IMG/VR virus record: IMGVR_UViG_3300009008_000004
Location: 82,004 to 146,003 of that record
Strand: one strand, 5' to 3'
Length of the DNA: 64,000 bases
DNA from: a virus
Positions 3,529 through 41,148 of this stretch are shown here, one piece after another (position 1 is the first letter of the stretch; the number at the start of each line of letters is the position of its first letter). The position numbers were made by a program, and so were the translations under genes. The notes under the pieces were generated by a model that did not search any database, was not told the origin of the DNA, and worked only from the letters and a program-made list of their open reading frames with translations.

Positions 3529-5184
3529 CTATTGGCCTTTCTGCTCTTCCATGTATGCCACACCGGCGTTCATCACGTCCGGTCGAGGGTGGGACAGCAT
3601 ACTCGCCAGGAAACAATAAAGTGCAGAGTGGAATGCATCATCGGTACCGTCAATTAGTTTGTCGTAGACAATTGTATGCCTGTCCTCACGATACTCACTG
3701 TAGATGTTCAAGAAATCCTCTGCAAAGGGCTTGAACTCCTCCCAACGGGGGAACCGGATGTGCCCCTTCTTGATTGCATTGAAAAACATGCTCATTACTT
3801 CTGTTCGGTTGGCAATAAATCGATTGAGCTGAGATTGCCATTTGACGAGCCCGCTAAGACCGGCGTACTGGTACTGCGCTACTTTCCGCGGACCGAAGGT
3901 TGTAACAAGATCATGGTTCCTATCAAAACCACCGCCGTAATCGACCCCGATGATGTCCATGCCAGGATGCTCAGAATACAGATGCTTTATATGGGCCATC
4001 TGCCTCTTGGGTTCCGACAACTCTCCCACGTACTTATGGAAATGGATGAACGTAAACTTTCCGTGAATGTATGTTCCTATGGAAGAAACTGTATAGGAAT
4101 TTTCCGCGGAACCCCAATCAACACCCATCCACTTAGGTTGCGCAGCGGCCTTGAAGTAGGAAGTACCATGTGGGTACTGGCTGCTGTACATCGAAACGGT
4201 AGGATCACACGCTGCTTTCAACTCTGCTTCCGTAATAGGAGTTGCCCCAACATCATGGGGAACCCCAAGTACCTCATTGAGGAATTGGGCCCGGGGGTAC
4301 CTTGTCCGTTTATCCAGCAGTTCCGGCCAGGATACCCGAGGAGAGATGATCTGCGGAATACGGAAACCCTCAAACGGTTCTTCAACCCCAGGCTCTGGAT
4401 TCATCGAAACCCATTGGGCAGAAGAATGCATCGGGTGTATCTGCGCATCGCAGCGAGCACACGATAAATATTCCTTTCCGATATTTTCTTCCCCAGGCAA
4501 ATTCCAATACCGGTAATCCCCACCCCCACAAGCATCGCAAGGTATCATCCACTCATTCTGCGTAGAGAACTTCTTGAATGTTCTGGAAAGGGTATTCGAT
4601 TCAGTCAGCGGAGTTCCGGCGTAATGGAATTGCTTGTGCTCAGAAGCAAACGTACACTCCTCGATAACCGGGAGGAGGGTGGCAAGGATGTTCTGGAGCT
4701 CATCCACAAAGAGGAAATCTGTCATGATACCGCGGATGGCATCTGCAGTTAGGAATGCATAACCAAGTCGAATCTCAGACCCAGAAACAAACTCCTTGTA
4801 CATCGCATTGTCTTTGGCACCCCGATTGGTCTGGAAATTACTCAAGAAATCGGACCAAAGCAGAGGTTGCTTCAGGCGATCACGACTAAAGGTTTGCGCC
4901 TGTCCCTGACGGGGAGCAACGTAAAGTATCTTGATATACGGACGTAACACGGAGGCCGCAATCATCTTATTGCCCTGGGATGTGCTTTTCTCCACCTGAC
5001 GGCCGCACATGAGGATAGTCTTTCTCGAGGGAGTGTCGTAGACACGCCGCAAATACCTACGGCCCTCAAATGAGAAGGGCTCGAGCTTTCCACTTTTGGG
5101 TAGACGGAAAGATGTTTCAACGAAATTCGAGAGGGTGAGCTTTGCCGGTTCCCTGGATTTAGACTGGAGCCCAATGGGGAGCAC
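3529..5184 (-). CDS. terL: Terminase large subunit (DNA packaging ATPase/nuclease)
   Basis: This is the motor that pumps DNA into the prohead through the portal and cuts it. The N-terminal ATPase has a Walker A-like GRQVEKST at residues 61-68 and Walker B FLFVDE at 157-162. A zinc-ribbon pair follows (C216/C219 and C242/C245), as in GpA-type terminases. The C-terminal RNase H-like nuclease shows GVDWG (D356), GVDYGGG (D415) and an Asp pair at 515-516, the expected metal-binding acids. At 551 residues it is full length. Walker A carries Glu where the second invariant Gly of the classical P-loop would be. It lies 2 nt downstream of a small proline-rich gene. No clear small terminase is adjacent. 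Confidence 0.95.
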   Translation of the reverse strand: MLPIGLQSKSREPAKLTLSNFVETSFRLPKSGKLEPFSFEGRRYLRRVYDTPSRKTILMCGRQVEKSTSQGNKMIAASVLRPYIKILYVAPRQGQAQTFSRDRLKQPLLWSDFLSNFQTNRGAKDNAMYKEFVSGSEIRLGYAFLTADAIRGIMTDFLFVDELQNILATLLPVIEECTFASEHKQFHYAGTPLTESNTLSRTFKKFSTQNEWMIPCDACGGGDYRYWNLPGEENIGKEYLSCARCDAQIHPMHSSAQWVSMNPEPGVEEPFEGFRIPQIISPRVSWPELLDKRTRYPRAQFLNEVLGVPHDVGATPITEAELKAACDPTVSMYSSQYPHGTSYFKAAAQPKWMGVDWGSAENSYTVSSIGTYIHGKFTFIHFHKYVGELSEPKRQMAHIKHLYSEHPGMDIIGVDYGGGFDRNHDLVTTFGPRKVAQYQYAGLSGLVKWQSQLNRFIANRTEVMSMFFNAIKKGHIRFPRWEEFKPFAEDFLNIYSEYREDRHTIVYDKLIDGTDDAFHSALYCFLASMLSHPRPDVMNAGVAYMEEQKGQ

Positions 5185-5600: not shown

Positions 5601-7256
5601 CTACCCCGTCGGTGGGTAAATATAGACCCATTCACCAGTTTTAGGGCTACGGTACTTCCGCAAGTATTTGTGCATACGGATACCCTTGGGCTGCTTCACC
5701 TTCAAAACGTTCCGCATGCTCTCATTCAACTGGTGCTTCTTCCGGGCAACGTTGTACACCCACTGGTCAACTGTAGCCCCGGGTTTACGGTTGAAGATGA
5801 AACCCTTGGGATACGCCGTTGTATACCGTTTGATAAGCACCTTTCGCTTCTCAGGAGGCCGATGGGATTGGCCACCCAATCGACGTACGCGGGCCTCGGC
5901 CTGGTGCACACGTTCCGGGTTCCAATGCCCATCCATTGAGAAGAACGCGGTAGCATTCTTCAGGTCGAGGCCTTCTGCCCCTGCACCAGAGATAAGGACA
6001 ACCTTCTTCTTGCCGGCCTTGAAGTCTGCAATGTCTACATCCCTACTATCGCGAGTCACCTTCTTACCCCCGATAGTTCTACCAGTACCAGCAAATACCC
6101 CAAAAGGAACTCCCCGCTGTTGCAGACCAGCCGCGGCAACGTCCAACCCTCCCTTGATGAGATTACTGTAGACAACAGCCTTCCCATCCGGCGTCTCCTT
6201 CAGATGGTTTTGGAGGTCATCCAGCAGTTTTTTTGTCTTAGGGGTCAACTCAGCAGACTGTGCCTTTGTGTACTCCGGGTTGGCAGAGGAGATATCGTTC
6301 AATGCCCGGCGGGCGTGGATGATCTTCCCAAACACATGAGCAAGCTGCTGTGGAGAGAGGTTAGTCTCTCCCTTAGCAATCATCTTCTTGATTGGGCCCA
6401 GCTTATCCATGACGTAGTCGTAGTAGAGCTTTTGCTCCTTTGACATTGGAACCCGAACAGTTTCCACCTGCTTTGCAGGCATGCTCTTTCCGACATCTTT
6501 ACTTGTTCGTACGTCAACGACGGGCGTGACATAATGTGCAATCTCGCCCGGATTCACGAGAGCTTTGATATCTTTCTTACCACCCCAAAAACCCTTCTCC
6601 TTTCCAATAGTACGCATGTACCTTTGTTTGAAGAGAGACTTGGACATAAATTGCCCCCCGGTCGCAATGTTGACCAGAGTAGCAATCTCCGCAGGACTGT
6701 TATTCACCGGACTCGCAGTTAGCCCAATGAAGTTCTTACTGTACTGCCGGGCCTGAAGTGCTGCCTTATGGGTACGTGATCGCTCAGAGCGCAGCTTATG
6801 GAACTCATCGAAAACCAGGGTATCAGCGCCACTCCGGCGGATGAGGCCAATGGGGTCCCGACGGAACATATCGTAAGAGATGACCGTGTAATCTGCTGCC
6901 GGAGTTATCTCATCGATATAATGGATGTTGTCGTTGGGGTCCTTGTTGGCCGCAGCCTTTGACCCAACAACCTGGTGGGAAGACTGCGTAAACTTCTGGA
7001 TACCTTCCTTCACGAAGTTGGTCTTCAAACCAGCCGGCACAACTACAAGGGCTTTGTTCGCACGTCCGGCAGCCTTAGCTTTTTCAAAAGCAAAGATTGC
7101 AGTAGCCGTCTTCCCAGTACCAGTGGCATGCGCAAGAATCACTTGCCCCTGGTTGAAGAACTTATTGACAGCCGCCTGCTGATGCGGGTAGGGCTTGAAC
7201 CCTTCCTTTACCCCGGCTACCTTAGTTTGCCCAAGGAATTGTGCAAGCTTGTCCAT
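5601..7256 (-). CDS. SNF2-like superfamily 2 DNA helicase/translocase
   Basis: This 551-residue protein carries the full SF2/SNF2 motif set: a Q-like PHQQAAV at 24-30, Walker A ATGTGKT at 44-50, the DEAH-like box DEFH at 150-153, motif III GLTASP at 178-183, and a C-terminal helicase domain ending with a motif VI-type segment near residues 455-470 (Gln, spaced Arg, then GGQ). SNF2 proteins use ATP to translocate on duplex DNA. The first residues carry the DKLA and TKVAG motifs seen in head-module neighbours. It sits among late genes (terminase downstream, a Gly-rich protein upstream) rather than with the replication operon, so a role in packaging, ejection or late transcription is worth considering. 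Confidence 0.9.
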   Translation of the reverse strand: MDKLAQFLGQTKVAGVKEGFKPYPHQQAAVNKFFNQGQVILAHATGTGKTATAIFAFEKAKAAGRANKALVVVPAGLKTNFVKEGIQKFTQSSHQVVGSKAAANKDPNDNIHYIDEITPAADYTVISYDMFRRDPIGLIRRSGADTLVFDEFHKLRSERSRTHKAALQARQYSKNFIGLTASPVNNSPAEIATLVNIATGGQFMSKSLFKQRYMRTIGKEKGFWGGKKDIKALVNPGEIAHYVTPVVDVRTSKDVGKSMPAKQVETVRVPMSKEQKLYYDYVMDKLGPIKKMIAKGETNLSPQQLAHVFGKIIHARRALNDISSANPEYTKAQSAELTPKTKKLLDDLQNHLKETPDGKAVVYSNLIKGGLDVAAAGLQQRGVPFGVFAGTGRTIGGKKVTRDSRDVDIADFKAGKKKVVLISGAGAEGLDLKNATAFFSMDGHWNPERVHQAEARVRRLGGQSHRPPEKRKVLIKRYTTAYPKGFIFNRKPGATVDQWVYNVARKKHQLNESMRNVLKVKQPKGIRMHKYLRKYRSPKTGEWVYIYPPTG

Positions 7257-12540: not shown

Positions 12541-15500
12541 TTAGTATGTTCCCTTCTCTCCCTTCCCAAATTCTGCTCCGTAAACTATCCCGGGAATCGG
12601 ATGTTCCCCATGGAGATGTGATATCCCCTGCTGGGATCCGGCCTGCTTCAGCACATCCCGCAAATGCTTATAATTGAGCTGCGTCAGCCAATCATCATGC
12701 AAATGGAAGGGCAAGATGTTTGTGCCTCGCAAAACAGGGGTATACTTGACAGTGTCCTTTTTCCCATTTTCAGAGTTCCAGGATTGGATCGCTCGGACAG
12801 GCACAATATCTCCGGGAAGATAATCTGGGTGATCCCCCGACTCCCGAACTTCCGCGACATCTGTTAGCGCCCGGACAATTACCTCGAGGTGCCTGTGGCG
12901 AATCTTCTCCGGGTCGTACAGCTTTCCGAGCTCATCTACCAGGTAGTTTTGTACTGTTGATACATTCGTAAGCCCAAGAAGTTCGCGGGGGTTGATGGGC
13001 CCACTGCTGAGTGCCCCACCCTTGGGAATGCGGGTTCCCTTAGTAACCTTAAGCTTACGGCTCGCAGGTACATGGTGCTGCTCAGAGCCTACCTTAACAT
13101 CCCAACCCCCAACGGGGCTCTTGGAGATGGAATTGACTACCCCGGCATTCTTGCTGAGGATAGCGGAACCCTTCAGCTTTTGGGGCATTTGTAGCACCTG
13201 CTTCAACCGCTCTATTCCATCCACAAGACCAGCGCCACCAGTGGCTGCGCCGCCGGTGTGAAAAACGCGCATCGCAAGCTGCGTGGCCGGCTCTCCGATG
13301 GATTGTGATGCGATGACCCCTACGTTCTCTCCTATGGGTGCGGGGTTGCCGGAAGGGTCGAGCCCGTAGCATTTCTGGCATAGGCCCTTCTTAGCCTGGC
13401 ACTTCAAGGGGCTGCGAACGAGAATCTTAGAGACCTTTGCCTGCCGTAACTTAGCTACTGTGTCGGGGGTAATCGTCGAGCCTGCCCGGAGAGTCTCGCC
13501 CCGCACCTTGACGTTGTTCGCCAAAGTACGATCCAACACAGAAAGATCTGTTACAGGGACATGCATGCCTTTAGAGGTCTTGCAGTCATTCTCAGTAAGC
13601 GTAATACCCATGGTGGTCTTGACTACCTGCTTGGTAATTGCCCCCGGGTCCTGAACCTCCTGCGTCTTGGAAATGATACCCCGGCGAATACCTCCAGAAG
13701 ACAGCCAGTAATCATGAAGGGAGAGCCCGGAGCCGTAGCTCCCAGTAATTGCGGCTGGGATCGGCTTCCCTGCTGCATCGCTTACCATCATACGCGCCAA
13801 GACGATCTGTTTGATCTGCTCCCAGTTTGGCTTCACCCCTGCCCGAGACATTATCCAAAGAGGATTATCGTCTTTCTCAAGAGAGGCAAGGGCTTCCTTC
13901 TGCATCTTCGCAGAGGCCTTTGTGTACAGGTCTACGATCTTCGCATCCCGTTCAGCCCGCGGCAATTTCGCCTGCTTCTTTATGGCGGCAACCTTAGGCT
14001 CTACTTCCTTCAAAGTCTTATCGCGAATCTTATCGAGCACCTTAAAGGCATCAAGATTGAAGGAGAACCCAATTTTGTGGGCATGGCCGAAGCCGAGGTC
14101 CTTCAGCGTCTGCGCAAACTGCGGGTACTCTTGCGGAGTCTTCTGTGCCACATCTTTCAAGATAGCCCGCAGAGACTGCTTGTGGAACGCCCACTCTTTC
14201 CCAGTACCCAGGTGCTTGTGTAATTTCGCGGGTATCTTCTTTTTAAGTAGCTCACGACCCGCAGTAGTTGCTGTACCCCCTACCTTCACCCCCACGTCCC
14301 AACGAACTTCCCGGTTCTCTGCTGCTTTCAACAGAGCATCAGCGGAGGCGTACTTTTTGGAAGTGGTACCTTTCATACGGCTAAGGAGATATAGCCCAAC
14401 CAGGCCTTCCTTATCTGGGACAAACATTGGCTGCCCAGTAGCTGCGCTCAGGAGATTCCGGCTCGGCAACATATCATAGGCTTCCTTTACAGCTGCCTGG
14501 GATACGGGAACAAACAAAGACACCTGGTCCCCGTCAAAATCAGCATTGTACCCACTACATACAAGCGGGTGGATGTGTATCTCTTTATCGCCTTTAATAC
14601 GAACATTGAATGCCATAATCCCATACTTATGGAGGACGGGATCACGTTTCATCAATACCGGCCGTTCCTTCAGCACGGCATCAAGGGCAATCCTCGCTTC
14701 AGGTCTTCTATTGAGAATAATGTCTTTGGCCTGAAGAGGCCGCATACCGCCCCGCACCAAATGTTGCATTACAAAAGGACGGAAAAGTTCCATAGCGGTA
14801 GCTTCCGGCATCCCTACTTCATCGAGCTGCAGTTCCTGGTCCGGGACAATAACCCCGCGGGCAGACATATCCTGCTTCCGCTTTACCAACTGCTCCATGA
14901 AGTAGCCAGTCTTCGGAGATTTCCCTGCGATAATATCGAGGATCCCCTTTGGGATATCCAACCGCTCACGGTCCGGACCAACCAGTCCTGCTAGAGCCGT
15001 AATACCGCCATAAACCTCCGCGCGGAGTTTAGCCAACTCTTCATCAGGAGTTTCGGGAGGCATCTCCGCCAGGCGCGAGTTACTCAAGCTCAACTCTTTG
15101 TATAGCTGGTTCAGATCTCCCCGATTGAGGTTGCCATCATCCAGCACAGTAATCGGACGTAGGTTGGGCGGGAGCACAAGAACATTGCCCTGCATGTACA
15201 CATCAGCGGAATTATCCGCACGCTTCAGAGCACGCAGATACTTCACTTTCCGGTTGAGCTGGTTACGGTTCGAGTCTTTAGCTCCCTCAAGACTCTTCTC
15301 AGCCTTCCGCAATTCAGTGGGGATATCCAACTCCTTAAGGGCTCGGCCAAGCGTAGCTCGAGGCCCAATACGAGTAGCCTCCTCTGCGGGGACCACATTA
15401 CCATCCTTATCCATCCCCAATTCACCGGAGACAAGCTTACTGAAGGTGTCGTGTTTCAGTCCCAGAAGCGCCATAATCGGCCGCTCAAACAATGGGTTGG

Positions 15501-18500
15501 GGAAAGCTTCCGCAAGCGCAAAATGGGAGAAGTGCTTTCCTCCTACACCACCGGTAATCTTCTCATCGAAGAGACCACCAGCCTCAGGGCGTAGGTCTTT
15601 TGCACGTAGGATTTTTCCGGGGTCTTTCAACTCTCCATTGGAGAGCTGTTTTACCTGCTTATCCGTAAAGGGAAGAACGGTGAGGACATCACCTTCACGC
15701 TCAACATCCAATCCAAGAACCTTGAGGTAGGCCAAGAACTTTTCGAACGCAAAAGGTACCTGCGGGCGAGGAAGGGGGTGGCCAAGTTGCACAGCTGTCC
15801 AAATATCATCCTGAGATTGGTCAGATTTGATAGTCTGCATCTCACGGATGTTATTCACTGCCCCATGCGCCAGCATCGCAAAAAGCCCCAACTCACCTAC
15901 ACGTTGTGCCCCATGCTTACCACCACCCTTGGGCTCCATATTAATGGTATATTCGTACCCTGGCCCCCAAGAACGAGCGGCTGCTTTCTTCTCTGCCTGA
16001 TGGTTCAACTTGATGATATACTGGTGGCCAACAAGCTGCTTCCCGAGCGCTTTCCCATTATCATCGAAAAGCTCAGCTTCCTCTGAAAGACCGCGAGCAT
16101 CCAACATATCATCAACAATGGAACGATAATCCCTCTCATACTCATAGGGCTCAATCCAAACTTTCTTCGTGCCCTTAGCGGAAGTCTTCACTGTACGCCA
16201 GTGACCCTTAACCTTAATAATGCGCGTAGACCGGTCCGCCTGGAAGTTCCGTACTGCAAGAGGAGATCCCTCGTGGATAGCGACATGCGAAAGGGAAGTT
16301 TCAAGCACCTGCCCGGCATTCATACGGCCGGGGACACCTAAGGGGTTCATAACAATATCGACGGCGTTGCCTTCTTTATCCCGGGGCATCTCATCATCAG
16401 GCAACACAAGGGCAACGACACCTTTGTTCCCATGGCGACCCGCCAACTTGTCCCCAGGCTGTGCCGGGAAATCTGCTCGTACGTGGACCTCGATGTACTT
16501 CCCACGACGAACAACGTCCACCACCTCACCGCGTACACCCTTGTCCCACACAACCGAGCGGTCTGTATACTCCCGAACAAGACTTCGGTGAATGCCCTTC
16601 ATCAGAGCTTTCTCAGGTGTCATCGGGGCCTTCTTAGCTGCAGCTACAACAGTATCTCCAGGCTCAACCACTTCCCCGACCTTGATAACACCGTCGTCAT
16701 CGAGCTTTCCGCGATTCTCTGTACTCATCGCTTCTGGGAAAAGGGTAGTGAACTTCTTCTTATTGAGTACGTAATCGCGGTCCATAAAAATGGAAGGCTT
16801 GTGCATGTGAACAGAAGTCAACTTCTTAGAAGCCGACTCAGAAATCAACAAGCCATCTTCAAAAACAAGGCCCTTGTACGGCAGGTAACCCACCCGCAAG
16901 TTAGTACCAAGAGCCAGTGTACCGTCCTTAGTGAAGTTAGTATCGGCGATTATCTCACCAGTCTTGACCGTGTCCCCAACAGCTACGGCCGGTTCAGAGC
17001 TCAGGTAGGCTTGCAGCTCATTCAGGGGGAAATTGTCATAGAGCTGTACTGTGTGCCGTTTTCCATCTTTCCCTGTAACCGTAATCCCGTCTTTCGTGAT
17101 ACGAGTTACCTTGCCGCTTACAGGAGAGGAGTGTGCGGCAAACGCCGCCCATGCTCTCTCATGGGTCCTCCCCGGCTCATCAAGAGATCGGCTGTGCGTT
17201 TGGATAAGCGGAGGCTCACGGTTCTTCAGGGGAAGCGCCTGCTCCATATGCCGGACTGCCATCTCCACTCGAGTACCATCATCGTTCTGTAGGAAAGGAA
17301 CCAGATTGGTCATAGGGGAGAACATCGTAGTTGCCGAGGGCAATACGTAGTCTACCTTTGCCGGGTCCACTACAGCCTTCAAATCTTCAGGGGTCTGCGC
17401 AGAGACCTTCTTAGTTACTGGAACCCAACCACCTTTCTCTTTGCGGTATTGGTCCGGAAAAGATACCACTGCCTGCGCAAGCTGAAGCGGGGTAACCAGC
17501 TCGAGTTTCTTTGTTTTCGTGTTGTACGCGGGGATAGTTACCGCCCCATCCTTTCTACGGGCATCAGTAGTTAGCTTGAGAGAAATGCCTGCGCGATCCC
17601 CTTCAGGGGTATGTACTGGATCAAGGACACCGAGCTGTGTGGGATCTGCTGCCTTGGCATCAGCGGTAACACCGAAGGCAGAGCCGATGGCCCCAACATC
17701 TGCGCCAAGCAACGTAGTTCCCAGGTACCGTGACAACATAGATACCGGGTTCGTTTGGGGAGTTTGGTTGGCAACAGAGGATTCCCGGAAGAATGAAAGG
17801 AGTGGGCCGGAGAAAATATCTGATGCGAATATTTCTCTAACCTTGTCCTTCCGATCCAGGTTATTCTTCATTTTCCGGGCTACTCTATTTCGCGCGCGGT
17901 CCAACCGATCCGGCAACAAGTCCTCTATCCCTAAGAGGTCCTTGAAGGGCAGCGCATCCCGATTATCTGGTTCTCGCTTACCCTGGTGTATCTCCAGAAG
18001 ATTGGTAGAAGCCTTTAGAAGAGGTTCTGCGTTTACTGTGGCATACGGCTTCCCCAAAGTAAGTGCTGTAGAGTCGGGACGAAGTTCTGTATCCGCAAAG
18101 CGGCTTCTTACCGCGTCTATCACCCCGGCCTCTGTTGCGGGCACCGGGTCCTTTAAAGAAGTAAGGAGTTTGCGTAAAGCAGCCTGCTTATCGCGGGGAG
18201 AAGTCTTTGCGGCGTTGAAGAGGTCTTTCCCCCAGGCCTTCTCCATAGCGCCGTCGGAAACCCCAAGGGCAGAGAGTACCGGGTAAAGGGGTACCTTAGC
18301 CGATGCATACTTAAAGGAAAAGTTCTTCTTGTTGGGATCCAGGATCAGGCGAAAACCACGTTGGTTAAATCCCTTCTTCAAGTTGAACATAATCTCGGGT
18401 TCTCCCGTAGCAGCAATACGAGAGTAAACGCCCGACTTCAGTCTCCAGACGTGATCGGTCTGGTACTCCTTGCCATCAATGATAAAGCTGTAACGGCGGG

Positions 18501-18825
18501 TAAGAGTGGGGAGGCCCACTATCTTTGCCTTTGGTACCCGATCGATAGTTTTCCCAGTAGCCTTATCTACAAGAGAAAAATCCCCGTGCACGCCAACAGA
18601 CCAGGTACGCCCGTTACGCCTTGCCGTTTCCTGGCTTTTGATGTCGTCAACCGACTTGGGGTCGGAGACCAATACACTGTTTAGCTTCAAGACGTGTTTC
18701 TTGCCTACAAGCGGGAAGAAGCTCTTTATCTTGTCGGCTACTTTCTGCTGAAGGTTATCAGTAAGAGTCTGCGGATTAAGGACAAGCATTTTTTTCGCAC
18801 CCCATGACGGCACTTTCCGCTCCAT
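12541..18825 (-). CDS. Single-chain fused beta-beta' DNA-dependent RNA polymerase
   Basis: This 2094-residue protein contains both large catalytic subunits of a cellular-type RNA polymerase in one chain. Beta part (to about 1045): HTPEG near 405, a FED acidic pair in the middle, GDKLAGRHGNKG near 790 with the two catalytic lysines, and the C-terminal clamp segment ending in TIKSD. Beta' part: FRPF, then NADFDGD at 1427-1433 (the three Mg-binding Asp), a bridge/trigger segment near 1700, a CxxC (CQKC) of the C-terminal zinc site near 1812, and SIGEPATQL to FHTGGAA near 1840-1860. The N-terminal beta' zinc ribbon is missing. E. coli beta plus beta' total about 2750 residues, so this is a compact version. 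No alpha, omega or sigma gene is seen here. The start is uncertain: the ATG at 18825 lacks a ribosome-binding site, and Met13 is an alternative. Confidence 0.95.
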   Translation of the reverse strand: MERKVPSWGAKKMLVLNPQTLTDNLQQKVADKIKSFFPLVGKKHVLKLNSVLVSDPKSVDDIKSQETARRNGRTWSVGVHGDFSLVDKATGKTIDRVPKAKIVGLPTLTRRYSFIIDGKEYQTDHVWRLKSGVYSRIAATGEPEIMFNLKKGFNQRGFRLILDPNKKNFSFKYASAKVPLYPVLSALGVSDGAMEKAWGKDLFNAAKTSPRDKQAALRKLLTSLKDPVPATEAGVIDAVRSRFADTELRPDSTALTLGKPYATVNAEPLLKASTNLLEIHQGKREPDNRDALPFKDLLGIEDLLPDRLDRARNRVARKMKNNLDRKDKVREIFASDIFSGPLLSFFRESSVANQTPQTNPVSMLSRYLGTTLLGADVGAIGSAFGVTADAKAADPTQLGVLDPVHTPEGDRAGISLKLTTDARRKDGAVTIPAYNTKTKKLELVTPLQLAQAVVSFPDQYRKEKGGWVPVTKKVSAQTPEDLKAVVDPAKVDYVLPSATTMFSPMTNLVPFLQNDDGTRVEMAVRHMEQALPLKNREPPLIQTHSRSLDEPGRTHERAWAAFAAHSSPVSGKVTRITKDGITVTGKDGKRHTVQLYDNFPLNELQAYLSSEPAVAVGDTVKTGEIIADTNFTKDGTLALGTNLRVGYLPYKGLVFEDGLLISESASKKLTSVHMHKPSIFMDRDYVLNKKKFTTLFPEAMSTENRGKLDDDGVIKVGEVVEPGDTVVAAAKKAPMTPEKALMKGIHRSLVREYTDRSVVWDKGVRGEVVDVVRRGKYIEVHVRADFPAQPGDKLAGRHGNKGVVALVLPDDEMPRDKEGNAVDIVMNPLGVPGRMNAGQVLETSLSHVAIHEGSPLAVRNFQADRSTRIIKVKGHWRTVKTSAKGTKKVWIEPYEYERDYRSIVDDMLDARGLSEEAELFDDNGKALGKQLVGHQYIIKLNHQAEKKAAARSWGPGYEYTINMEPKGGGKHGAQRVGELGLFAMLAHGAVNNIREMQTIKSDQSQDDIWTAVQLGHPLPRPQVPFAFEKFLAYLKVLGLDVEREGDVLTVLPFTDKQVKQLSNGELKDPGKILRAKDLRPEAGGLFDEKITGGVGGKHFSHFALAEAFPNPLFERPIMALLGLKHDTFSKLVSGELGMDKDGNVVPAEEATRIGPRATLGRALKELDIPTELRKAEKSLEGAKDSNRNQLNRKVKYLRALKRADNSADVYMQGNVLVLPPNLRPITVLDDGNLNRGDLNQLYKELSLSNSRLAEMPPETPDEELAKLRAEVYGGITALAGLVGPDRERLDIPKGILDIIAGKSPKTGYFMEQLVKRKQDMSARGVIVPDQELQLDEVGMPEATAMELFRPFVMQHLVRGGMRPLQAKDIILNRRPEARIALDAVLKERPVLMKRDPVLHKYGIMAFNVRIKGDKEIHIHPLVCSGYNADFDGDQVSLFVPVSQAAVKEAYDMLPSRNLLSAATGQPMFVPDKEGLVGLYLLSRMKGTTSKKYASADALLKAAENREVRWDVGVKVGGTATTAGRELLKKKIPAKLHKHLGTGKEWAFHKQSLRAILKDVAQKTPQEYPQFAQTLKDLGFGHAHKIGFSFNLDAFKVLDKIRDKTLKEVEPKVAAIKKQAKLPRAERDAKIVDLYTKASAKMQKEALASLEKDDNPLWIMSRAGVKPNWEQIKQIVLARMMVSDAAGKPIPAAITGSYGSGLSLHDYWLSSGGIRRGIISKTQEVQDPGAITKQVVKTTMGITLTENDCKTSKGMHVPVTDLSVLDRTLANNVKVRGETLRAGSTITPDTVAKLRQAKVSKILVRSPLKCQAKKGLCQKCYGLDPSGNPAPIGENVGVIASQSIGEPATQLAMRVFHTGGAATGGAGLVDGIERLKQVLQMPQKLKGSAILSKNAGVVNSISKSPVGGWDVKVGSEQHHVPASRKLKVTKGTRIPKGGALSSGPINPRELLGLTNVSTVQNYLVDELGKLYDPEKIRHRHLEVIVRALTDVAEVRESGDHPDYLPGDIVPVRAIQSWNSENGKKDTVKYTPVLRGTNILPFHLHDDWLTQLNYKHLRDVLKQAGSQQGISHLHGEHPIPGIVYGAEFGKGEKGTY

Positions 18826-18859: not shown

Positions 18860-18913
18860 TACTCTAACTGGTATAAGGGAAATGTAAGGAGCGGATACCC
18901 CGCATACTCTAAC
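18860..18913. repeat. Direct repeat TACTCTAAC flanking a promoter
   Basis: The 9-base sequence TACTCTAAC occurs at 18860-18868, directly abutting an extended -10 box, and again at 18905-18913, between the likely start of transcription and the ribosome-binding site. The copies are 45 bp apart, about four helical turns. Such an arrangement would suit a repressor that binds both sites, but no regulator is identified. Confidence 0.4.
18869..18877 (+). promoter_or_regulatory. Extended -10 promoter of the micro-ORF pair
   Basis: TGGTATAAG fits an extended -10 element (TGnTATAAT, five of six in the hexamer). No good -35 box is visible at 17 bp. Transcription would begin near 18884, about 50 nt before the first micro-ORF. 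The same TGnTATAAG form precedes the replication operon at 23350-23358. Confidence 0.5.
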
Positions 18914-19210: not shown

Positions 19211-19251
19211 ATGTTGGGGCCCGGCGCATAGCGCGTTTGGGCCCCTATTTT
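19211..19251. terminator. Bidirectional hairpin terminator
   Basis: Arms GGGGCCC (19216-19222) and GGGCCCC (19239-19245) form a perfect 7-bp stem with an inner GCGC/GCGC pair. On the plus strand it is followed by TATTTTA. On the minus strand it is followed by AACATTTT. It can end both the plus-strand micro-ORF transcript and the minus-strand portal transcript, separating the portal unit from the RNA polymerase gene. Confidence 0.75.
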
Positions 19252-21181
19252 ACTTCTTACTTGTTAGGGGAGGGGGACCACCGCTGAATTGGTCAACCTG
19301 CATTCTATTTACTTCATCGAGAATTGCAGGGTAAAGGCTTGGAACCTGCTTCTGCAGCTTAATAAGCGCTTTCGGGCGTTGGAAGGAATCCAGAGCAAAT
19401 AGGCTACGGGCAGCCTGCCTTGCCAGGAGTTCAGTCTCCGGGCCGGTAGGGGGCTGAACCTGCGGAGCTTCCGGAGCTGCTGGAGGCATAGCCATATCTT
19501 CTGGACGCGCACCTAATGCCTGCATTTGCTCAGGAGGCAGGCTACCGGGCTGCTGGGGAGCGCCCTGCGGTGCCTGTCCCGGAGGGGCCTGGCCGGGGGG
19601 CACCTGCCCTGGAGGAGGCGGAGGCATCGATTCCTGCATAGCCTTCTGCTGCTCTCCCTGATATTTAGCTGAGATAATTCCAGCCTCTCCGTTGATCTCC
19701 GCGCCGTCGGTAGCGGTCTTCTCGTTGATCTTCCGCATGATATCCAGATCGTTGAAAATCTTCTGCTGTTCCGTATTGAAGTCGAGGTCCCTGGATTCCA
19801 GCAGAGTCTCGGGGCTGATGAGCTTACGGTCGTAAAGCTGGAGGTCATATGCGGCTTTCTGCAATTCGTCTGCCATGCGGAAGGGCTTCTGCCGCACCTC
19901 ACACAGAGGAATGCCGAAAGCATTAGCAATGTCCCTAACGATGAACTTGATCATATGGTGGACATCCTCCCTCATACGGAGGAAAGAGTTCTCCATTGTC
20001 CGCATCGAAACGCTTGACCCACTCCAGCGCAACCCGCCAAAGACAAACTCAGAGGGGACGCCGAGACCCGCGAGAATCTGCTCCTGCAGAACCTTAATCT
20101 CGTTATGGAGCAGAAGCATTTTACCTTGCCCACCAACAACCTGGTGCCCCACCGGATACGGCATTACGGGCATGTAGTTAGGGTCCTTCCTCCAGGTAGT
20201 AATCTCAGACTTTACGTGGTCCTGCCAGTCGAGCAGGTTATACGTGGTATAGGGATCCGCTTTCGGGTCGGAGGTCTGCGGGAAGAAGATACGCATCGGT
20301 ACAATGTGCTCGAGGGCAATCGCTTCCTGCGCTTTCAGCAGAATCCTGTAGTAGAACGCGGTCTTCATTACCGGGGTAATCAGGGGGAGACCCCAGCCGG
20401 CATCATGCCTTGAAATGGATGTTCTACGCAGATGGAATATTGTTCCCGGGCGGAAAACCAGCTTCTTGCCCTTGGCAACAGCGTTGATGAACGCTTGCGG
20501 AATAGTCTGCAGGGTATCCTTCCGACCAACCAGAATAGCGTTCGAGATGGCAGGGGGGATCGTGTACACGTAGATTGTACGCCCAGTTGCGGGGTTATGC
20601 TCAATCTCCATGTAGTTCGGGTTGATCCTGAGGACTCGCAGGTCCTTCAAAGATTTGATGTACTGGTCCTGAACCTTGGCGTACCCACTGTAAGTACACT
20701 TGGGGCAGGTATACATGAACTGGTAAGAACTCCAGGTGTAGTCTGTAGACTCTACCGGAACAGAGTGCCCACATTCCCGGCACACCAACATCTTCCGTAG
20801 TGGGTGGTGGACGTATACAAAAGAGTTCCCGTAGGTATGGTAGTCCATCAGGACCTCTACGAGGAATGCACGAATCTGGAATACTTCCTCAAAGATGTAC
20901 TTGTAGGTGTCGTTTACCCACTCGTTCTCACTCAGATACGCAAGATCCGTAATGGGGTACGCCGAGAGCTTGGCTATCGCTGCATGGATAAGTGGGTCCA
21001 TGACCGCGAAATACTCGCACCATTTGAATTGCGATTTTACGGTACGCGGGAGGTACAGGTTGGAGACATCCGCAAACACATTGGCGTACGGAGCGTAATC
21101 AGTGCTTCCTGCACGAGATCCGTAACCACTGAATCTCCCGCTTGAGCCCGACGCTACATCGTATGGGTTGCTCCCAAACAT
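19250..21181 (-). CDS. Portal protein
   Basis: The portal forms the dodecameric ring at the unique head vertex through which DNA enters and leaves. The 643-residue protein has the portal-type core: a membrane-free alpha/beta N-terminal half, a segment near residues 355-400 with GLGVPSEFVFGG and then a Ser/Arg-rich helix (the usual crown/stem entry), and helical repeats after it. A zinc ribbon (C134, C137, C159, C162) is inserted in the N-terminal half. Residues of about 510-580 are a Pro/Gln/Gly-rich linker with repeated PPGQAPPG-type units. The ATG at 21181 follows AGGAG. The stop abuts the bidirectional terminator, so this ends a transcript. Confidence 0.9.
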   Translation of the reverse strand: MFGSNPYDVASGSSGRFSGYGSRAGSTDYAPYANVFADVSNLYLPRTVKSQFKWCEYFAVMDPLIHAAIAKLSAYPITDLAYLSENEWVNDTYKYIFEEVFQIRAFLVEVLMDYHTYGNSFVYVHHPLRKMLVCRECGHSVPVESTDYTWSSYQFMYTCPKCTYSGYAKVQDQYIKSLKDLRVLRINPNYMEIEHNPATGRTIYVYTIPPAISNAILVGRKDTLQTIPQAFINAVAKGKKLVFRPGTIFHLRRTSISRHDAGWGLPLITPVMKTAFYYRILLKAQEAIALEHIVPMRIFFPQTSDPKADPYTTYNLLDWQDHVKSEITTWRKDPNYMPVMPYPVGHQVVGGQGKMLLLHNEIKVLQEQILAGLGVPSEFVFGGLRWSGSSVSMRTMENSFLRMREDVHHMIKFIVRDIANAFGIPLCEVRQKPFRMADELQKAAYDLQLYDRKLISPETLLESRDLDFNTEQQKIFNDLDIMRKINEKTATDGAEINGEAGIISAKYQGEQQKAMQESMPPPPPGQVPPGQAPPGQAPQGAPQQPGSLPPEQMQALGARPEDMAMPPAAPEAPQVQPPTGPETELLARQAARSLFALDSFQRPKALIKLQKQVPSLYPAILDEVNRMQVDQFSGGPPPLTSKK

Positions 21182-28128: not shown

Positions 28129-29164
28129 TGAGATAGTTGCGATGCTTGAGCATAAGTTACGCATTATAGACCACACCGGTGAGAACCTGGCGTGTATCTG
28201 CCCATTCCATAAGGGTGGGCGAGAAAGCAGGCCATCGTTCTACGTCTATGTTGGTCCTGTCTATGGAACCAAGGTTCCGGGGATGGCCTTCTGCCACACC
28301 TGTAATCGCGGTTGGTCTTTGAAGGGTCTGCTGAAAGACCTTGGCACCCCTTTGAAGAGAATCGATGCCCTCACCAAGGATATCCCTACTGTGGGGGAGC
28401 GCATCACACCGATCCGGTATGCAAAGGGGCTCACCTTCGATAATCCGGTTCTACCTGAAGGTCTGCTGGGGGTATATGATAGCTGCCCGGTGGATCTCCT
28501 GGATGCCGGGTTTGAGATGAGCATCTTGCGCAAATACGAGATCGGGTTCGATCCGTTCCTCGACCGCATCACTTTCCCGTTGCGGGACCACAAAGGCAAT
28601 CTCATTGGAATATCCGGCCGCTCAGTAGCGAAGTTCCCGAAGTACAGATACCACTTGTACCGGGGGGATGACCTGCGAAAGGCCGGAGACGACGACAAAG
28701 AGTTGGCGCGGGCCTGTTCCGGGTATAAGCTATTCAAAGGACGGTTCCTTTGGAACCTCCACTCGATGTACACAACAGCTATCATGGGATCTATCCCGTA
28801 CGTTATTGTTGTAGAAGGGTTCAAGCAGGCCATGTGGCTCGCCCAGGCTGGGTGGGACTACACAGTTGCATTGATGGGTTCGCATATGTCTCGGGAACAG
28901 GCGACTCTTCTGATGCGGCTGGGGGCACCTGTCTACATCTTTCTCGACAATGATGCTGCGGGGCAGCAGTCAGCACCGAAGCTGGTGAAGTGGTTGCGCC
29001 GGCAAAGTCCTGACATCTACCAAGTAACGTACCCTGTGGGTACTGAGGATCTCTCCCCGGATGACTTCCGGCCGGAGGATCTATCGTCAATCCTAACAAT
29101 AGTGGGGCAACAGAATGGACAAGTTGCAAGCATTCACCAAGAAGTTCAACAAACAGAAGGCTAA
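28115..29164 (+). CDS. DnaG-type DNA primase
   Basis: Primase makes RNA primers for lagging-strand synthesis. The N-terminal CHC2-type zinc finger is visible (C29, H32, C60, C63; C27 is also near). The TOPRIM catalytic domain shows VVEGFKQA near residue 232-239 with its Glu, and FLDNDAAG near 272-279 with its two Asp. At 349 residues it is short: cellular DnaG is about 580 because it has a C-terminal helicase-binding domain, which is reduced or absent here. The ATG at 28115 has GGAGGGAGG upstream and overlaps the helicase gene; its own end overlaps the next gene by 50 nt. Confidence 0.9.
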   Translation: MLVRSEIVAMLEHKLRIIDHTGENLACICPFHKGGRESRPSFYVYVGPVYGTKVPGMAFCHTCNRGWSLKGLLKDLGTPLKRIDALTKDIPTVGERITPIRYAKGLTFDNPVLPEGLLGVYDSCPVDLLDAGFEMSILRKYEIGFDPFLDRITFPLRDHKGNLIGISGRSVAKFPKYRYHLYRGDDLRKAGDDDKELARACSGYKLFKGRFLWNLHSMYTTAIMGSIPYVIVVEGFKQAMWLAQAGWDYTVALMGSHMSREQATLLMRLGAPVYIFLDNDAAGQQSAPKLVKWLRRQSPDIYQVTYPVGTEDLSPDDFRPEDLSSILTIVGQQNGQVASIHQEVQQTEG

Positions 29165-30197
29165 GCAGCCGAAAGGTGGGGGCGGTGATCGCAAGGCCCC
29201 GGCTTGGGCCCAAAGAAGAAAGGCGATCCGCATGGGACCCACTCCCGTCTGGGTGTGGCTCTATCCCGGGGAGTATGAGGATGGGATGCCCTTGTATGAG
29301 TACTGGGCAACCTGGCTGAAAAGAGATGGTAGAAATCGTTTCATCCTCTGCAACTGTCACGGAGGGCAGAGGGAGGGGGCGAAATGTCTCCTGTGCCATA
29401 AGATGCAGGAAGAAGAGAACGATCATTACATTCCGAAACCGAGAGTGGCGATCAATGCAATCGAGCTTGCGGACTTCCACAAGATCGAGAAGAAGAGTGA
29501 GAAGGGCACCGTTTGGTACGAATACGAACGTTGTGCCGGTACCGACGCACTCGGCCGGAATTTGTGTAAATATTGCGATGCGAAGATCGAGACCGTCTAC
29601 GGTCGCCGCGGGTTTTTGAACCTTGGAAAGGGCTACTGGAACAACTTCCAGAAAGTCATGGAAGAGGCCCGTAAGATCTGCAAGACCTGTGGTGGGAGCC
29701 TTCATCTGCTTCGGTATGTGTGTGCTGAGTGCGACGAGGTATTCCTCGACCCGGCAAAGAGCACCGTTACCGAGGAACAGCGGCAGGAGATGGAAACCAA
29801 GGATACCGTATGCCCGATGTGCGTACACAAGGGCCCGGCCAAAAAGGTCGTCGGTTGTTTCAAGAAGGACGAGGATACGGATAAGTTCGTGAAGGGTTGT
29901 GATACACCCATCCCCTCCGACATCTTCGACTTCCCACTCCTCCTTTCCATTGAAGGTGAAGGACCCGGCAGCACACTGACTTGCGACGTCCAGCAGATGG
30001 AACCGCAGGAAATGCCGGATGAGGTCCAGGCCATGATGGTGCCTTACGACTTCGAGTCCTTCTTCGGAGAGATGCCTGTTACCGAGCAGGCAAACATCAT
30101 GGGCGTAAATGAAGTTCCCAAGCATCTGCTTGCGGAATCTGAAGGTGGGGACGCTTCCGCCGAGCCGAGTAAGCCCAAGACCATCAACTACGAGTAG
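29115..30197 (+). CDS. Cys-rich protein, candidate single-stranded DNA-binding protein
   Basis: This 360-residue protein has about six Cys pairs of zinc-ribbon type, between residue 77 (CNCHGG) and residue 275: CxxCH, CKYC, CKTC, CAEC, CPMC and a last C...C. The N-terminus is basic and the C-terminus acidic and disordered (Glu, Pro, Ser), a layout common in phage ssDNA-binding proteins such as gp32, whose acidic tail recruits partners. It sits between primase and DNA polymerase, where phages often encode the SSB. No OB-fold signature can be read by eye, so the function is a proposal. It could also be a zinc-dependent replication or transcription factor. Confidence 0.6.
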   Translation: MDKLQAFTKKFNKQKAKQPKGGGGDRKAPAWAQRRKAIRMGPTPVWVWLYPGEYEDGMPLYEYWATWLKRDGRNRFILCNCHGGQREGAKCLLCHKMQEEENDHYIPKPRVAINAIELADFHKIEKKSEKGTVWYEYERCAGTDALGRNLCKYCDAKIETVYGRRGFLNLGKGYWNNFQKVMEEARKICKTCGGSLHLLRYVCAECDEVFLDPAKSTVTEEQRQEMETKDTVCPMCVHKGPAKKVVGCFKKDEDTDKFVKGCDTPIPSDIFDFPLLLSIEGEGPGSTLTCDVQQMEPQEMPDEVQAMMVPYDFESFFGEMPVTEQANIMGVNEVPKHLLAESEGGDASAEPSKPKTINYE

Positions 30198-36692: not shown

Positions 36693-39600
36693 TTAGTAAA
36701 CCGTATTGCTCGCTACCGTACCCGGGGCCAGGATACCACCACCTGCGCCGCCTGTAGTGTCGTATGTAGTATTCCCCACGACAGTACAGCTGACTTCGGC
36801 ACCAGCACCGGTAATGGAAAGGTGATGTGGGGCCGCAGCATTCTGTGGCCCGCAGAAAGTGTTGCCTGTGAAAGTAAGGGCCTGAATAGTGTCCCCCAGA
36901 GCTGTTGTAGCATCCACAAGATCTACACCACCAGCAGCAACCGCAGAGCTGATGAACACATTCCCAGTAAACGAGCTCCAAGCGATGTTAGTACCAAGGC
37001 TCACACAACCAGCATCCGCCGTCTCGAAAGTATTGCCTGTCATCGTCCAGTACCGATGGGTAGCCGGCGCAACAAGGGCAAAAGTGCTAAAGCAGAATCC
37101 CGCGGCCACCTGCACGCTATTATTTGTGATGGTGACGTTGGTGGAATCGGCTGTACAGAATAGAGCAGCGGAACAAGTGCTCCCCTCAATTGTATTGCCG
37201 GAAATCAGCATGGGATCCGCATTGGATGCGCCCACGAAAGAGATGAGCATTCCTACCGCAAAATCCCAATCTTGGATGGTGTTATTCAAGCATTTCCCGC
37301 CATCCGCGGTAAACGCAATTGCAGACCCGCCGTTAGCTATAAGGGAGGAAAATGTACTTTCCTTCACTACGCATTTCTCGCCCCCAATCTGGAACCCGTT
37401 TCCACTAGGCGTTTTGGTGGCGGCAACGTTGTGTATCCCCGGCCCAACAATCCCATAGTCCGCCTGCGGTGTCAGGATGCAAAATGCAGTGCCGTCATAG
37501 TCAGTAATCGCAACATCCTTAATGCGCGGATAAGGTTGGTTCGAGTAAATAGCGGGCCCTATCGGACCTACAATTGTGCACGCAGTGTTATTGATCTCAC
37601 AGCCATCGCCTACTACCAGATACTCGACATCCCCATAGACCGCTGTTACCGCGACATCATAGATGTGCGTAGAGAGGACTTGGGCATGGTCCGCGTGCGC
37701 TCCCGTAAGGTACACGCCGTAACCAAAGGCATCCCCCGCAACAGTACTCTCGCAATGTAGGTGGCAGTTGCGGACCTTCCGGAAAGCTTTTGAGTATGTG
37801 GTAGCGATCGCATCATCCAAACGGATGTTGATCGCCGCCTGAGTAGCAGCATTAGCCCTAGCCCGGAAACGGAAATCATTGATATCCCAAGACCCAAGAC
37901 CGACTACACCCGCAGTAACACCGTCGATGTTAATTCCATGTTCCGTGGATTCCCAGCTTACGTTGGTAACCTCAAGCCTACCAAGATTCTGGTTGTTGCC
38001 CCCAGAGGTAATCTGCAGCAAATGGGCGGGATACCCAGAAACTGCAGCGAAGGTTATGTTCTCCAAGATCAGCTGTGCCGTTGTCGAGTGGGCCGTCAAC
38101 GGGCTCATGAGGATAGCAGCATGGCCGGCAGAAGCCGTATCATCATGAGCAATAACTACGTTCTTCAGAGTCAACGAGGTAACATCACCGTCAACAATAA
38201 AGATATCCGTAACTCCCGTGGGGGCCCAGGTAAGAGTATGCCCATCTCCGTCAATGACCAAAGAATCAAGCTGCGTAATAGTTGTGGCAGCCGTAACCAC
38301 CACGGAGGAAGTCAGGCGAATAGTAGCTTCAAAATTGTAATCCGAATCCCCAGTACCACCGGCTGTAACAAAAGTGAGCAAGTTCTGTACGAAGCCTACG
38401 GCGGACTCAATGGTCGAAAAGTTCGCCGACTCACCAGAGCCTACAGTCAATGCAAGGGCATGATCAAATTTCCCAAAAACGCGGGCCGGCTGGACATCAA
38501 GTACGTTTCCGCCGGCAGTTGTAAACCACCCAAGCAGGACATCCCCGCCCACAGGATACGGGGACGCCCCAGCAGGATCCCCAAGATCCGAGAATAGGAT
38601 ATTAGCCGGTGTATCAGTCGCCGCAACCGCCCCCGTTGCTGCAACATAATAGAGGAAGTACGTGGTGTTCAGGCCTGCCCAACCACCACCACTTGTAATA
38701 AGCGGGGAGGCCGCGGAAATCTGCGCAGTTACACCAGCTGTAGAAACAAAGAAATCATTCGCAGCGTCAATGTCGGGGCTTGCACCCGGGGTAGAAAACC
38801 CGGGATCACTAAGCAGCCGACCGGCATTCGTCAACTCGTTCCCTGTCTGCTGCTCAATGATATTACGCTGGATACTTACACTTGCAGATCTGTAAGCATC
38901 AAAAGGTGCTACCTTTTCAGTGGCCGCGGGGGCTACAGCGTTGTACGTCCAACCATCTTCGTTGGTCCATGCTACCGGAGCACCCGAAGCATTGTAGACT
39001 GCTACCTGCGGCTCATCCCACAGATCAGCATTGTGGGCTGTAACACGCACCTTCTTGTCGGAATTGGTTCCCGGCTGGCTAATCTCCCCAAGGGATGCAC
39101 GGGCGTTCAGGTGCTCCATCTGCGGAGTACTGCTAACCGCAAATGCCGACTCACTCAAGTAACGGTACATATCTTCAGTAGCCGCGTGGACACCGATATT
39201 CAATCGGTATAAATCTGTGGCAGCGCCACCATCCAACGCTGCGGCGAAGTTAACGGCTACCGTGTGGCCGGCCGTACCAATCGGTACAAACCCCGGGGGA
39301 CAATAGAAGTCAAAACCAGTCGAAGCGGCAGCAACGGAGGTATCAAAGACAATCGGTTCGCCCACATCTTCTATGGCACGAGCAGTAAAGTCCACCTGAC
39401 ACGTCTCACCAGATGCGGCATTAGTAAGAACATCATTATCAGCCAGAGCGTAGATATTGTTTACCTGCCCAGTGGTCCAAGGAACACCAGTCCAGGGGTG
39501 GACCCAAAGGTATCCCTCGCCACTACCTGCGTCGTAGTCATAGTCAAAGACATAGAAGTACTGTCCTGCCGCTGTCTGGAAGACATGGCCGGTGTAAGGA

Positions 39601-40397
39601 CCGCCTACCCACGGAGCAGGAACAAAAGTGTCGATGGGTATCTTCTTAGCCGCAGTCTTCATAAGGACTGCCTTACGTCCTGTACCATCGATCTCAACAA
39701 TCTGATACCAGCCCGGATTTACAGTGCCCGAGATTTTGACATAAGCTCCGGGGTAAACATCCATTGCCGAAAAGGCTCCAAGGCCTGAAATACCATCCCG
39801 CTCAAAGACATTGGCTCCCGCGCCAGGACTGAGAGTACCGAAAAGGTGCGCAAGGGGGGCTACCTCAGTAGGCTGCGTAAGCGCAAGTGTCAGAGTAGAG
39901 TTCGCATTGAACATCGCACCCGCGTCATAGGTAACGCCTGCGGCAGCGAGCTGTTGCCGAACCTTAGCTCCTGCACGATAGGTATGCGCCGGCCCATGTG
40001 TAACAGAGAACGGCTGTCCCATAACCTGGTCCAGGAACAGTCCCACATTCACATAAAGGGGGCCAATAGTTGCACCAACCGCTGTCGCAATATCGAGGTT
40101 AGCCGCAGCACCACCTGTAAGGTCGAGCCCCGAAAGGATAGTCGAGTCGAACGTGCAGGGGACTGCATTGTAGAACGAGTTGATCATCTGATGCATATCG
40201 TTCTGACCAGATACCCCAGCAAGAGCCCGGTTGAAGGCAGAGGAGGTAGCAGACTCTCCGTACCCCATAAACTTCGTACCGGTTGGCTGCGCTGTACCGG
40301 GCAGGTACCCGCCAACCCGGTTAGCAGGGGTTGCCCCACTCAAATTCTCCGGGGTGTTCCCTACAAGTTTTCCTGTTGTGTCATAGTTCCTGGGCAT
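36693..40397 (-). CDS. Large tailspike/tail fibre with beta-helix
   Basis: This 1234-residue protein has a virion-binding N-terminal part followed from about residue 640 by long runs of short, regularly spaced beta strands with Asn, Gly and Thr turns (VVIDGDGHTLTW-like strands, NNTI, GNTF and GNTIEG steps). That is typical of a right-handed parallel beta-helix. These tailspikes bind and often cleave surface polysaccharide; no catalytic residues can be named by eye. The first 110 residues are Thr/Gly-rich with likely trimerisation or attachment function. It lies at the downstream end of the tail cluster, with a second beta-helix protein two genes upstream. Confidence 0.8.
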   Translation of the reverse strand: MPRNYDTTGKLVGNTPENLSGATPANRVGGYLPGTAQPTGTKFMGYGESATSSAFNRALAGVSGQNDMHQMINSFYNAVPCTFDSTILSGLDLTGGAAANLDIATAVGATIGPLYVNVGLFLDQVMGQPFSVTHGPAHTYRAGAKVRQQLAAAGVTYDAGAMFNANSTLTLALTQPTEVAPLAHLFGTLSPGAGANVFERDGISGLGAFSAMDVYPGAYVKISGTVNPGWYQIVEIDGTGRKAVLMKTAAKKIPIDTFVPAPWVGGPYTGHVFQTAAGQYFYVFDYDYDAGSGEGYLWVHPWTGVPWTTGQVNNIYALADNDVLTNAASGETCQVDFTARAIEDVGEPIVFDTSVAAASTGFDFYCPPGFVPIGTAGHTVAVNFAAALDGGAATDLYRLNIGVHAATEDMYRYLSESAFAVSSTPQMEHLNARASLGEISQPGTNSDKKVRVTAHNADLWDEPQVAVYNASGAPVAWTNEDGWTYNAVAPAATEKVAPFDAYRSASVSIQRNIIEQQTGNELTNAGRLLSDPGFSTPGASPDIDAANDFFVSTAGVTAQISAASPLITSGGGWAGLNTTYFLYYVAATGAVAATDTPANILFSDLGDPAGASPYPVGGDVLLGWFTTAGGNVLDVQPARVFGKFDHALALTVGSGESANFSTIESAVGFVQNLLTFVTAGGTGDSDYNFEATIRLTSSVVVTAATTITQLDSLVIDGDGHTLTWAPTGVTDIFIVDGDVTSLTLKNVVIAHDDTASAGHAAILMSPLTAHSTTAQLILENITFAAVSGYPAHLLQITSGGNNQNLGRLEVTNVSWESTEHGINIDGVTAGVVGLGSWDINDFRFRARANAATQAAINIRLDDAIATTYSKAFRKVRNCHLHCESTVAGDAFGYGVYLTGAHADHAQVLSTHIYDVAVTAVYGDVEYLVVGDGCEINNTACTIVGPIGPAIYSNQPYPRIKDVAITDYDGTAFCILTPQADYGIVGPGIHNVAATKTPSGNGFQIGGEKCVVKESTFSSLIANGGSAIAFTADGGKCLNNTIQDWDFAVGMLISFVGASNADPMLISGNTIEGSTCSAALFCTADSTNVTITNNSVQVAAGFCFSTFALVAPATHRYWTMTGNTFETADAGCVSLGTNIAWSSFTGNVFISSAVAAGGVDLVDATTALGDTIQALTFTGNTFCGPQNAAAPHHLSITGAGAEVSCTVVGNTTYDTTGGAGGGILAPGTVASNTVY

Positions 40398-40407
40398 CTA
40401 AAGCCTC

Positions 40408-41130: not shown

Positions 41131-41148
41131 GCTACCCCCTTGCGGTGC

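Follow-up and report, generated by a model that had tools for sequence, protein, structure and literature searches.

The 182,719-bp genome of the virus record examined here (G000, a ~183-kb phage) encodes an RNA polymerase (RNAP) in which β and β′ are genuinely fused in one real frame of 2094 residues. Its catalytic motifs are intact, and the N-terminal β′ zinc ribbon and the flap tip of β are missing throughout its lineage. No α gene could be detected, one type of σ factor co-occurs with the polymerase, and the gene lies in a head-gene module behind the portal. The lineage to which the enzyme belongs is large and has been little described, and the enzyme is a variant on the two-barrel RNAPs already known from phages. 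Positions are given for the window, i.e. the whole 64,000-nucleotide stretch of DNA that was analysed (Table 1).

Table 1. Features of the RNAP gene and its surroundings, in window coordinates
Feature	Position	Strand	Residues	Remarks
Single-chain β-β′ RNA polymerase	12541..18825	minus (18825→12541)	2094 aa	
β part	15688..18825	minus	1-1046	End of bacterial β aligns at 1046; Pfam matches
β′ part	12544..15687	minus	1047-2094	Pfam Rpb1_2 and Rpb1_5 over cut-off; AlphaFold model
GRHGNKG, β catalytic barrel motif	16420..16440	minus	796-802	K793 and K801 kept
Shortened β flap	16441..16530	minus	766-795	Flap-tip segment missing
NADFDGD, catalytic aspartates	14527..14547	minus	1427-1433	
Trigger-loop motif TQLAMRVFHTGG	13249..13284	minus	1848-1859	
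Site of bacterial β′ N-terminal four-Cys zinc ribbon	15529..15549	minus	1093-1099	Ribbon absent here
Second β′ zinc site	13369..13584	minus	C1748/C1809/C1816/C1819	Aligned with bacterial sites
Portal protein	19250..21181	minus		Directly upstream of RNAP gene; 31% to Arash portal, E 2e-86; weak phrog_9232
SNF2-family helicase	5601..7256	minus		Homologue of Arash virion helicase gp217
Terminase large subunit	3529..5184	minus		
Putative promoter motif copy GGTATAAG	18870..18877	plus		
Putative promoter motif copy GGTATAAG	28722..28729	plus		

One frame for β and β′

GRHGNKG of β and NADFDGD of β′ follow one another in a single frame. The Pfam models Rpb2_6, Rpb1_2 and Rpb1_5 matched the 2094-residue chain above cut-off, and the matches in the β part were to Rpb2_3, Rpb2_6 and Rpb2_7, the last of these below cut-off. 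The last residue of Pseudomonadales β aligns with residue 1046 and β′ begins immediately afterwards, leaving a linker of about 2 residues at most. The same single frame is found in a relative with 77% identity; this relative begins at M13 of our chain (window position 18789), which is possibly the true start. An IMG/VR contig from another metagenome (3300007510_000032, here L005) spans the gene and is 99.985% identical to G000 over 26,282 bp.

The hallmarks of a two-barrel core were all found, namely the NADFDGD triad, the catalytic lysines of β, the bridge helix and the trigger loop. No four-cysteine ribbon was found after GLFDEKI in the 2094-residue chain, and four of the only five cysteines in the whole protein make up the second β′ zinc site. 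The β flap is about ten residues shorter in every family row compared, and from its position we take the missing segment to be the flap tip. Alignment with the bacterial enzyme also revealed changes at four positions (Q to N, D to P, H to R and S to T), which we take to be rifampicin-contact sites from the role generally ascribed to them. AlphaFold models of the β′ half (pLDDT 79.8, pTM 0.59) and of residues 601-1800 (pLDDT 76.4, pTM 0.61) both matched bacterial β′ chains in the PDB, with E-values down to 2.5e-65 and 3.3e-44, respectively. The β′ half is predicted by these models to adopt a cellular-type fold, and nothing in them contradicts an active-site channel, although they were not used to measure how the two halves sit relative to each other.

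An initial annotation of this stretch had proposed that motifs of both subunits run in order through one 2094-residue frame, that β ends at about residue 1045 with practically no linker and that the N-terminal β′ zinc ribbon is missing. All three claims held, with the gene on the minus strand and the end of bacterial β at 1046. The further claim that a C-terminal CxxC pair is kept was too weak; a complete four-cysteine set is present there. Two outcomes had been named that would refute the annotation. A frameshift or assembly join near residue 1045 was looked for in L005 and in the 77% identical relative and none was found, and structure prediction gave nothing to suggest that the β′ half cannot form the active-site channel.

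A lineage of fused phage polymerases

Relatives were gathered by scans of IMG/VR, in which we counted 173 distinct β-bearing frames. Single chains that reach the end of β′ make up 102 of these, 38 frames stop after the NADFDGD domain and 27 stop soon after the start of β′; five run off their contig and one, at a contig edge, comprises β only. None of the 173 stops at the β/β′ boundary, and across the family the median gap between the β and β′ profile matches is 2 residues. The fusion is common to the whole lineage and the additional breaks all lie inside β′. Two-chain members include those of Arash and Vibrio phage D69. Single chains of 2.4-3.0 thousand residues also exist, owing to insertions. 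The insertion in one single chain (L007) resembles an intein.

The N-terminal ribbon pattern was found in none of the 167 fused members scored and in all bacteria scored. Among phages with unfused RNAPs, the ribbon is kept in YerA41, RHph_TM30, 1.031.O, Va2, Carin-5 and L309 and has a variant form in L327; it was not seen in L366. Ribbon loss and flap shortening are common to one-chain and multi-chain members. Salmonella AFYI/AGRM and Acinetobacter MD-2021a 'phage' records, as well as unannotated Staphylococcus/Listeria/Enterococcus clone matches, were excluded as apparent host rpoBC contamination.

In a tree of concatenated β and β′, one-chain and split members formed one clade with 100% SH-aLRT support, separate from the sampled bacteria; inside it the split group was supported at 96% and the one-chain group at 75%. 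The same clade appeared at 100% in a β′-only tree that included more unfused phages, with weaker inner support. These trees have several long branches and were made without archaeal, eukaryotic, fused bacterial (Helicobacter) or published mReC sequences. The clade is distinct from the bacteria that were sampled, and these samples do not settle how deep the lineage is. Nor is the direction of change proven, i.e. whether one chain was later broken or two chains were joined, the β-to-β′ fusion being common to all members.

The initial annotation had also suggested that a compact, full-motif fused enzyme is uncommon in a phage and may represent an independent lineage. Independence held against the sampled bacteria, fused bacterial enzymes being outside the sample, and a lineage of fused, full-motif, ribbon-less phage RNAPs is supported. 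The suggested rarity must be qualified, with 102 distinct single chains among the sequences fetched. In the open-access phage-RNAP literature that we searched, no phage β-β′ fusion of this kind is described; subscription papers were outside the scope of the search.

The nearest described relatives are gp206/gp216 of Salmonella phage Arash (PMC10585845; OQ632216) and the enzymes of Vibrio phages D69, D181 and D148, which at ~30% identity have the same linker-free fusion of β to β′. The Arash/D69-type relatives also lack the N-terminal zinc ribbon and have a gp10-type σ. The portal upstream (shown for Arash) and the GGTATAAG motif described below are likewise common to Arash and G000, but the motif is not shown in D69. 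Relatives of this type retain the fusion but differ from G000 in that their β′ is cut downstream, after the NADFDGD domain (~residue 1515), so that the enzyme consists of two chains; the annotation of Arash gp206 reads merely 'beta'. In its fusion, its loss of the ribbon, its upstream portal and its gp10-type σ, the RNAP of G000 meets the features of the Arash-type lineage.

Multi-subunit-RNAP-encoding Caudovirales (mReC) resemble the lineage in that their β and β′ are recognisable by cellular models. They branch apart from cellular enzymes, and for the lineage studied here such a separation is seen against the sampled bacteria only. They were reported to have β and β′ as subunits, with no mention of fusion, and the capsid proteins found in them (8 of 97 contigs) were all PF07068 (PMC7481178). 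Neither G000 nor any of the 17 fused-lineage records checked matched that capsid family, which was present in seven phages with unfused RNAPs. The terminase of G000 matched PF05876 and not the mReC-type PF03237, whereas the Arash terminase matched both. We rejected filing the phage as an mReC on these capsid and terminase features. The RNAP sets of the two groups might still overlap, given that the capsid was detected in only 8 of the 97 mReC contigs. PMC7481178 names some mReC examples, and none of the contigs fetched here bears one of their dataset numbers.

The phiKZ/AR9-type vRNAP and nvRNAP are also α-less phage two-barrel enzymes, one form of which is packaged in the virion, and AR9 has a σ-like subunit; they consist of four or five chains and are far more diverged, in contrast to the single chain of G000. 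Both barrels lie on one polypeptide in gp66 of the crAss-like phage phi14:2 and in gp96/gp64 of P23-45, and gp66 and gp96 are virion enzymes, but these proteins have low similarity to cellular RNAPs. Unlike crAss-like and YonO-like polymerases, the G000 enzyme has colinear β and β′, can be aligned with its bacterial counterparts from end to end and gives strong profile and PDB matches. Some bacteria, such as Helicobacter, have a fused rpoB-rpoC with β followed by β′ in one chain. The phage clade differs from this type in lying outside all sampled bacteria, although the tree held no fused bacterial enzyme.

Gene neighbourhood, partner proteins and a putative promoter

Of the 76 family loci with sufficient flanking sequence, some of them near-identical, 74 have a portal gene upstream of that for the RNAP. 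G000 has homologues of the Arash portal, terminase, capsid, SNF2-family helicase and σ. The last of these, a gp10-type σ, is encoded at G000:146100-146999 on the minus strand, ~100 bp beyond the window; each of the 25 fused-lineage records contains this type, with E at or below 1.1e-5, and three phages with unfused RNAPs do not. Pfam finds region 3 alone in the gp10-type σ. We dropped the idea that a lack of region 4 in this σ accompanies the loss of the flap tip, as by eye its C-terminal part looks like a diverged region 4. A second σ-like protein in G000 has Pfam regions 2 and 4.

No match to α (PF01193) over cut-off was obtained in G000 or in 28 records, the control for this model being positive in 13 of 14 genomes. 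Searching the whole G000 genome with the RNAP protein found one RNAP only. A weak PF04997 match at window positions 29562-29834 was considered as a second RNAP and rejected, the frame that overlaps it having no family match. A tRNA search of genome pieces found none.

Exploratory word counts upstream of genes, covering many words in G000, yielded the motif GGTATAAG, for which Arash and other records served as an independent check. The motif occurs 27 times on one strand of G000 and twice on the other and ranks first of 560 same-letter permutations, the permutation mean total being 5.2. At all 30 plus-strand sites (27 GGTATAAG and three GGTATAAA) a purine is found at offset +14, and at most of them a pyrimidine at +13, as would be expected for a -10 element with a start site. 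At the G000 sites no -35 element resembling TTGACA is conserved, and neither TATAAT nor TGnTATAAT, the canonical forms, is enriched in that genome. The strand distribution in Arash is 30 to 1; 25 of the 30 sites lie 13-61 nt ahead of an annotated gene start, all 30 have a purine at +14, and the +13/+14 pattern is as in G000.

Among other lineage members, GGTATAAG is strongly enriched in G009, G014, G016, G017, G020, G021 and G023 and weakly in G008. It is not enriched in D69, G013, G012 and G007 and is therefore not universal in the lineage; neither is it enriched in five phages with unfused RNAPs. The putative promoters are mainly on the strand of small, mostly non-structural genes. We consider GGTATAAG a likely -10-like promoter, as inferred from sequence alone, and that the fused enzyme is its reader is likewise an inference.

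Proposed function and alternatives

The explanation we favour, with moderate confidence, is that the enzyme is an α-less virion RNA polymerase with its own σ, which starts transcription at GGTATAAG promoters. The one polypeptide would be a complete DNA-dependent RNA polymerase core, with a bacterial-type β joined end to start to a ribbon-less β′, and fusion of the subunits would allow folding without the α dimer, the scaffold of bacterial β/β′ assembly. The enzyme is inferred to be packaged in the virion, as for the Arash enzyme, virion proteomics being available for Arash only. It would enter the cell along with the DNA, then join the phage gp10-type σ, and this holoenzyme would start phage genes at GGTATAAG promoters without host polymerase. 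In Arash, gp206/gp216, σ gp10, helicase gp217, the portal and the capsid were all detected in virions, and gp206 had the highest spectra count of all virion proteins (PMC10585845).

An origin of the fused frame in faulty assembly or sequencing can be practically excluded. One independent copy, L005, does carry an in-frame stop, but this stop is one of only four differences from G000, clustered G-to-T changes in codons 699-713 that are distant from the junction, and the artefact reading is already refuted by 102 distinct, independent single-chain sequences. Together with the agreement of L005, these sequences rule out a frameshift or assembly artefact at the junction. It is also unlikely that the enzyme is produced in the infected cell to transcribe middle or late genes, without being a virion polymerase, and was found in Arash virions through carry-over. 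The Arash authors themselves raised carry-over from heavy expression (PMC10585845), and an enzyme that is the only RNAP found in its genome could be needed at every stage. Against this stand the top rank of gp206 among Arash virion spectra, the location of the gene in the head module adjoining the portal and the bias of the putative promoters towards the strand of small, mostly non-structural genes.

Similarly doubtful is the possibility that the chain is a core only, which borrows host α and/or host σ and leaves phage transcription dependent on the host. The absence of an α gene from G000 and the 28 records and the bacterial-like β and β′ core would fit such dependence, but a dedicated σ type is present in 25 of 25 lineage records, and the phiKZ and AR9 enzymes are active without α and ω (PMC8287921, PMC9209446). 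Use of host α by the fused enzyme is nevertheless not excluded. A more serious possibility is that the GGTATAAG promoters are used by host polymerase carrying a phage σ rather than by the fused enzyme. The second σ-like protein, with its regions 2 and 4, might serve the motif on host polymerase, and this counts against the explanation we favour. Conversely, most of the phages tested from the fused lineage show enrichment of the motif, none of the five with unfused RNAPs does, and the canonical elements are not enriched in G000.

Beyond a virion polymerase with its own σ in this one phage, a bolder reading, which we would neither endorse nor dismiss, is that the virions of a widespread phage lineage contain a transcription machine of two components, an α-free, ribbon-less, bacterial-type single-chain core plus a dedicated σ, and that this machine has its own class of GGTATAAG promoters, a class conserved even where the polymerases of the phages are only ~30% identical. 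Bacterial RNA polymerase normally requires α to unite β and β′. A natural single chain that is readily aligned to the bacterial enzyme would offer a minimal test of whether α, the N-terminal zinc ribbon and the flap tip are dispensable. Its one-, two- and three-chain relatives provide a tree for following fusion and later breakage, and the proposed promoter makes the role of the enzyme directly testable with phage Arash in a laboratory strain of Salmonella.

Variation among single-chain RNA polymerases

In the RNA polymerase of L007, a compared single chain carrying beta and the entire beta' in one frame, the beta C-terminal region is interrupted by an insertion of ~370 aa (columns about 1045-1418 of the RNAP alignment A1). 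This insertion begins with Cys, ends in GN|S and contains LAGLIDADG-like motifs, and the RNAPs of L008-L010 carry an intein-like insertion as in L007. By sequence, these insertions resemble inteins. Further long single chains, of 2.4-3.0 thousand residues, were present in L059, L066, L069, L083 and L225.

An almost identical phage (L005, IMGVR_UViG_3300007510_000032) was recovered from a different metagenome. Its RNAP gene carries four G-to-T differences in one cluster, one of which creates a stop; this cluster is likely an assembly error.

Sigma-like genes and other large genes

The second sigma-like protein of the virus record (G000) is distinct from the gp10-type sigma of virions. In Salmonella phage Arash (L022, OQ632216), the sole late-strand copy of GGTATAAG, the putative promoter motif, lies at position 11588 (plus), immediately preceding gp9-gp10, the site of the virion sigma gene. 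The lone odd-strand copies in the fused-lineage records G017 and G021 are likewise close to the sigma gene.

Among the very large gene products, the 1777-aa protein has a baseplate-wedge match; family matches of the 1234- and 1718-aa products were absent or merely marginal.

Locations of the second sigma-like gene and the very large genes
Feature	Location	Strand	Basis
Second sigma-like protein	G000:C1 6338-6925 (outside window)	plus	Pfam regions 2 and 4
Genes for very large products of 1234, 1718 and 1777 aa	window 36693-54092	minus	baseplate-wedge match for the 1777-aa product only

Phages with unfused RNAPs

In Carin-5 and YerA41, which have unfused RNAPs, the beta' gene comes first, followed by beta. 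A PF07068 (T4 gp23-like) capsid match was found in all seven comparison phages with separate beta and beta' (L183, L184, L185, L186, L187, L327 and L366); two of the seven matches fall under the curated cut-off. PF07068 is the capsid type described for multi-subunit-RNAP-encoding Caudovirales (mReC; PMC7481178).
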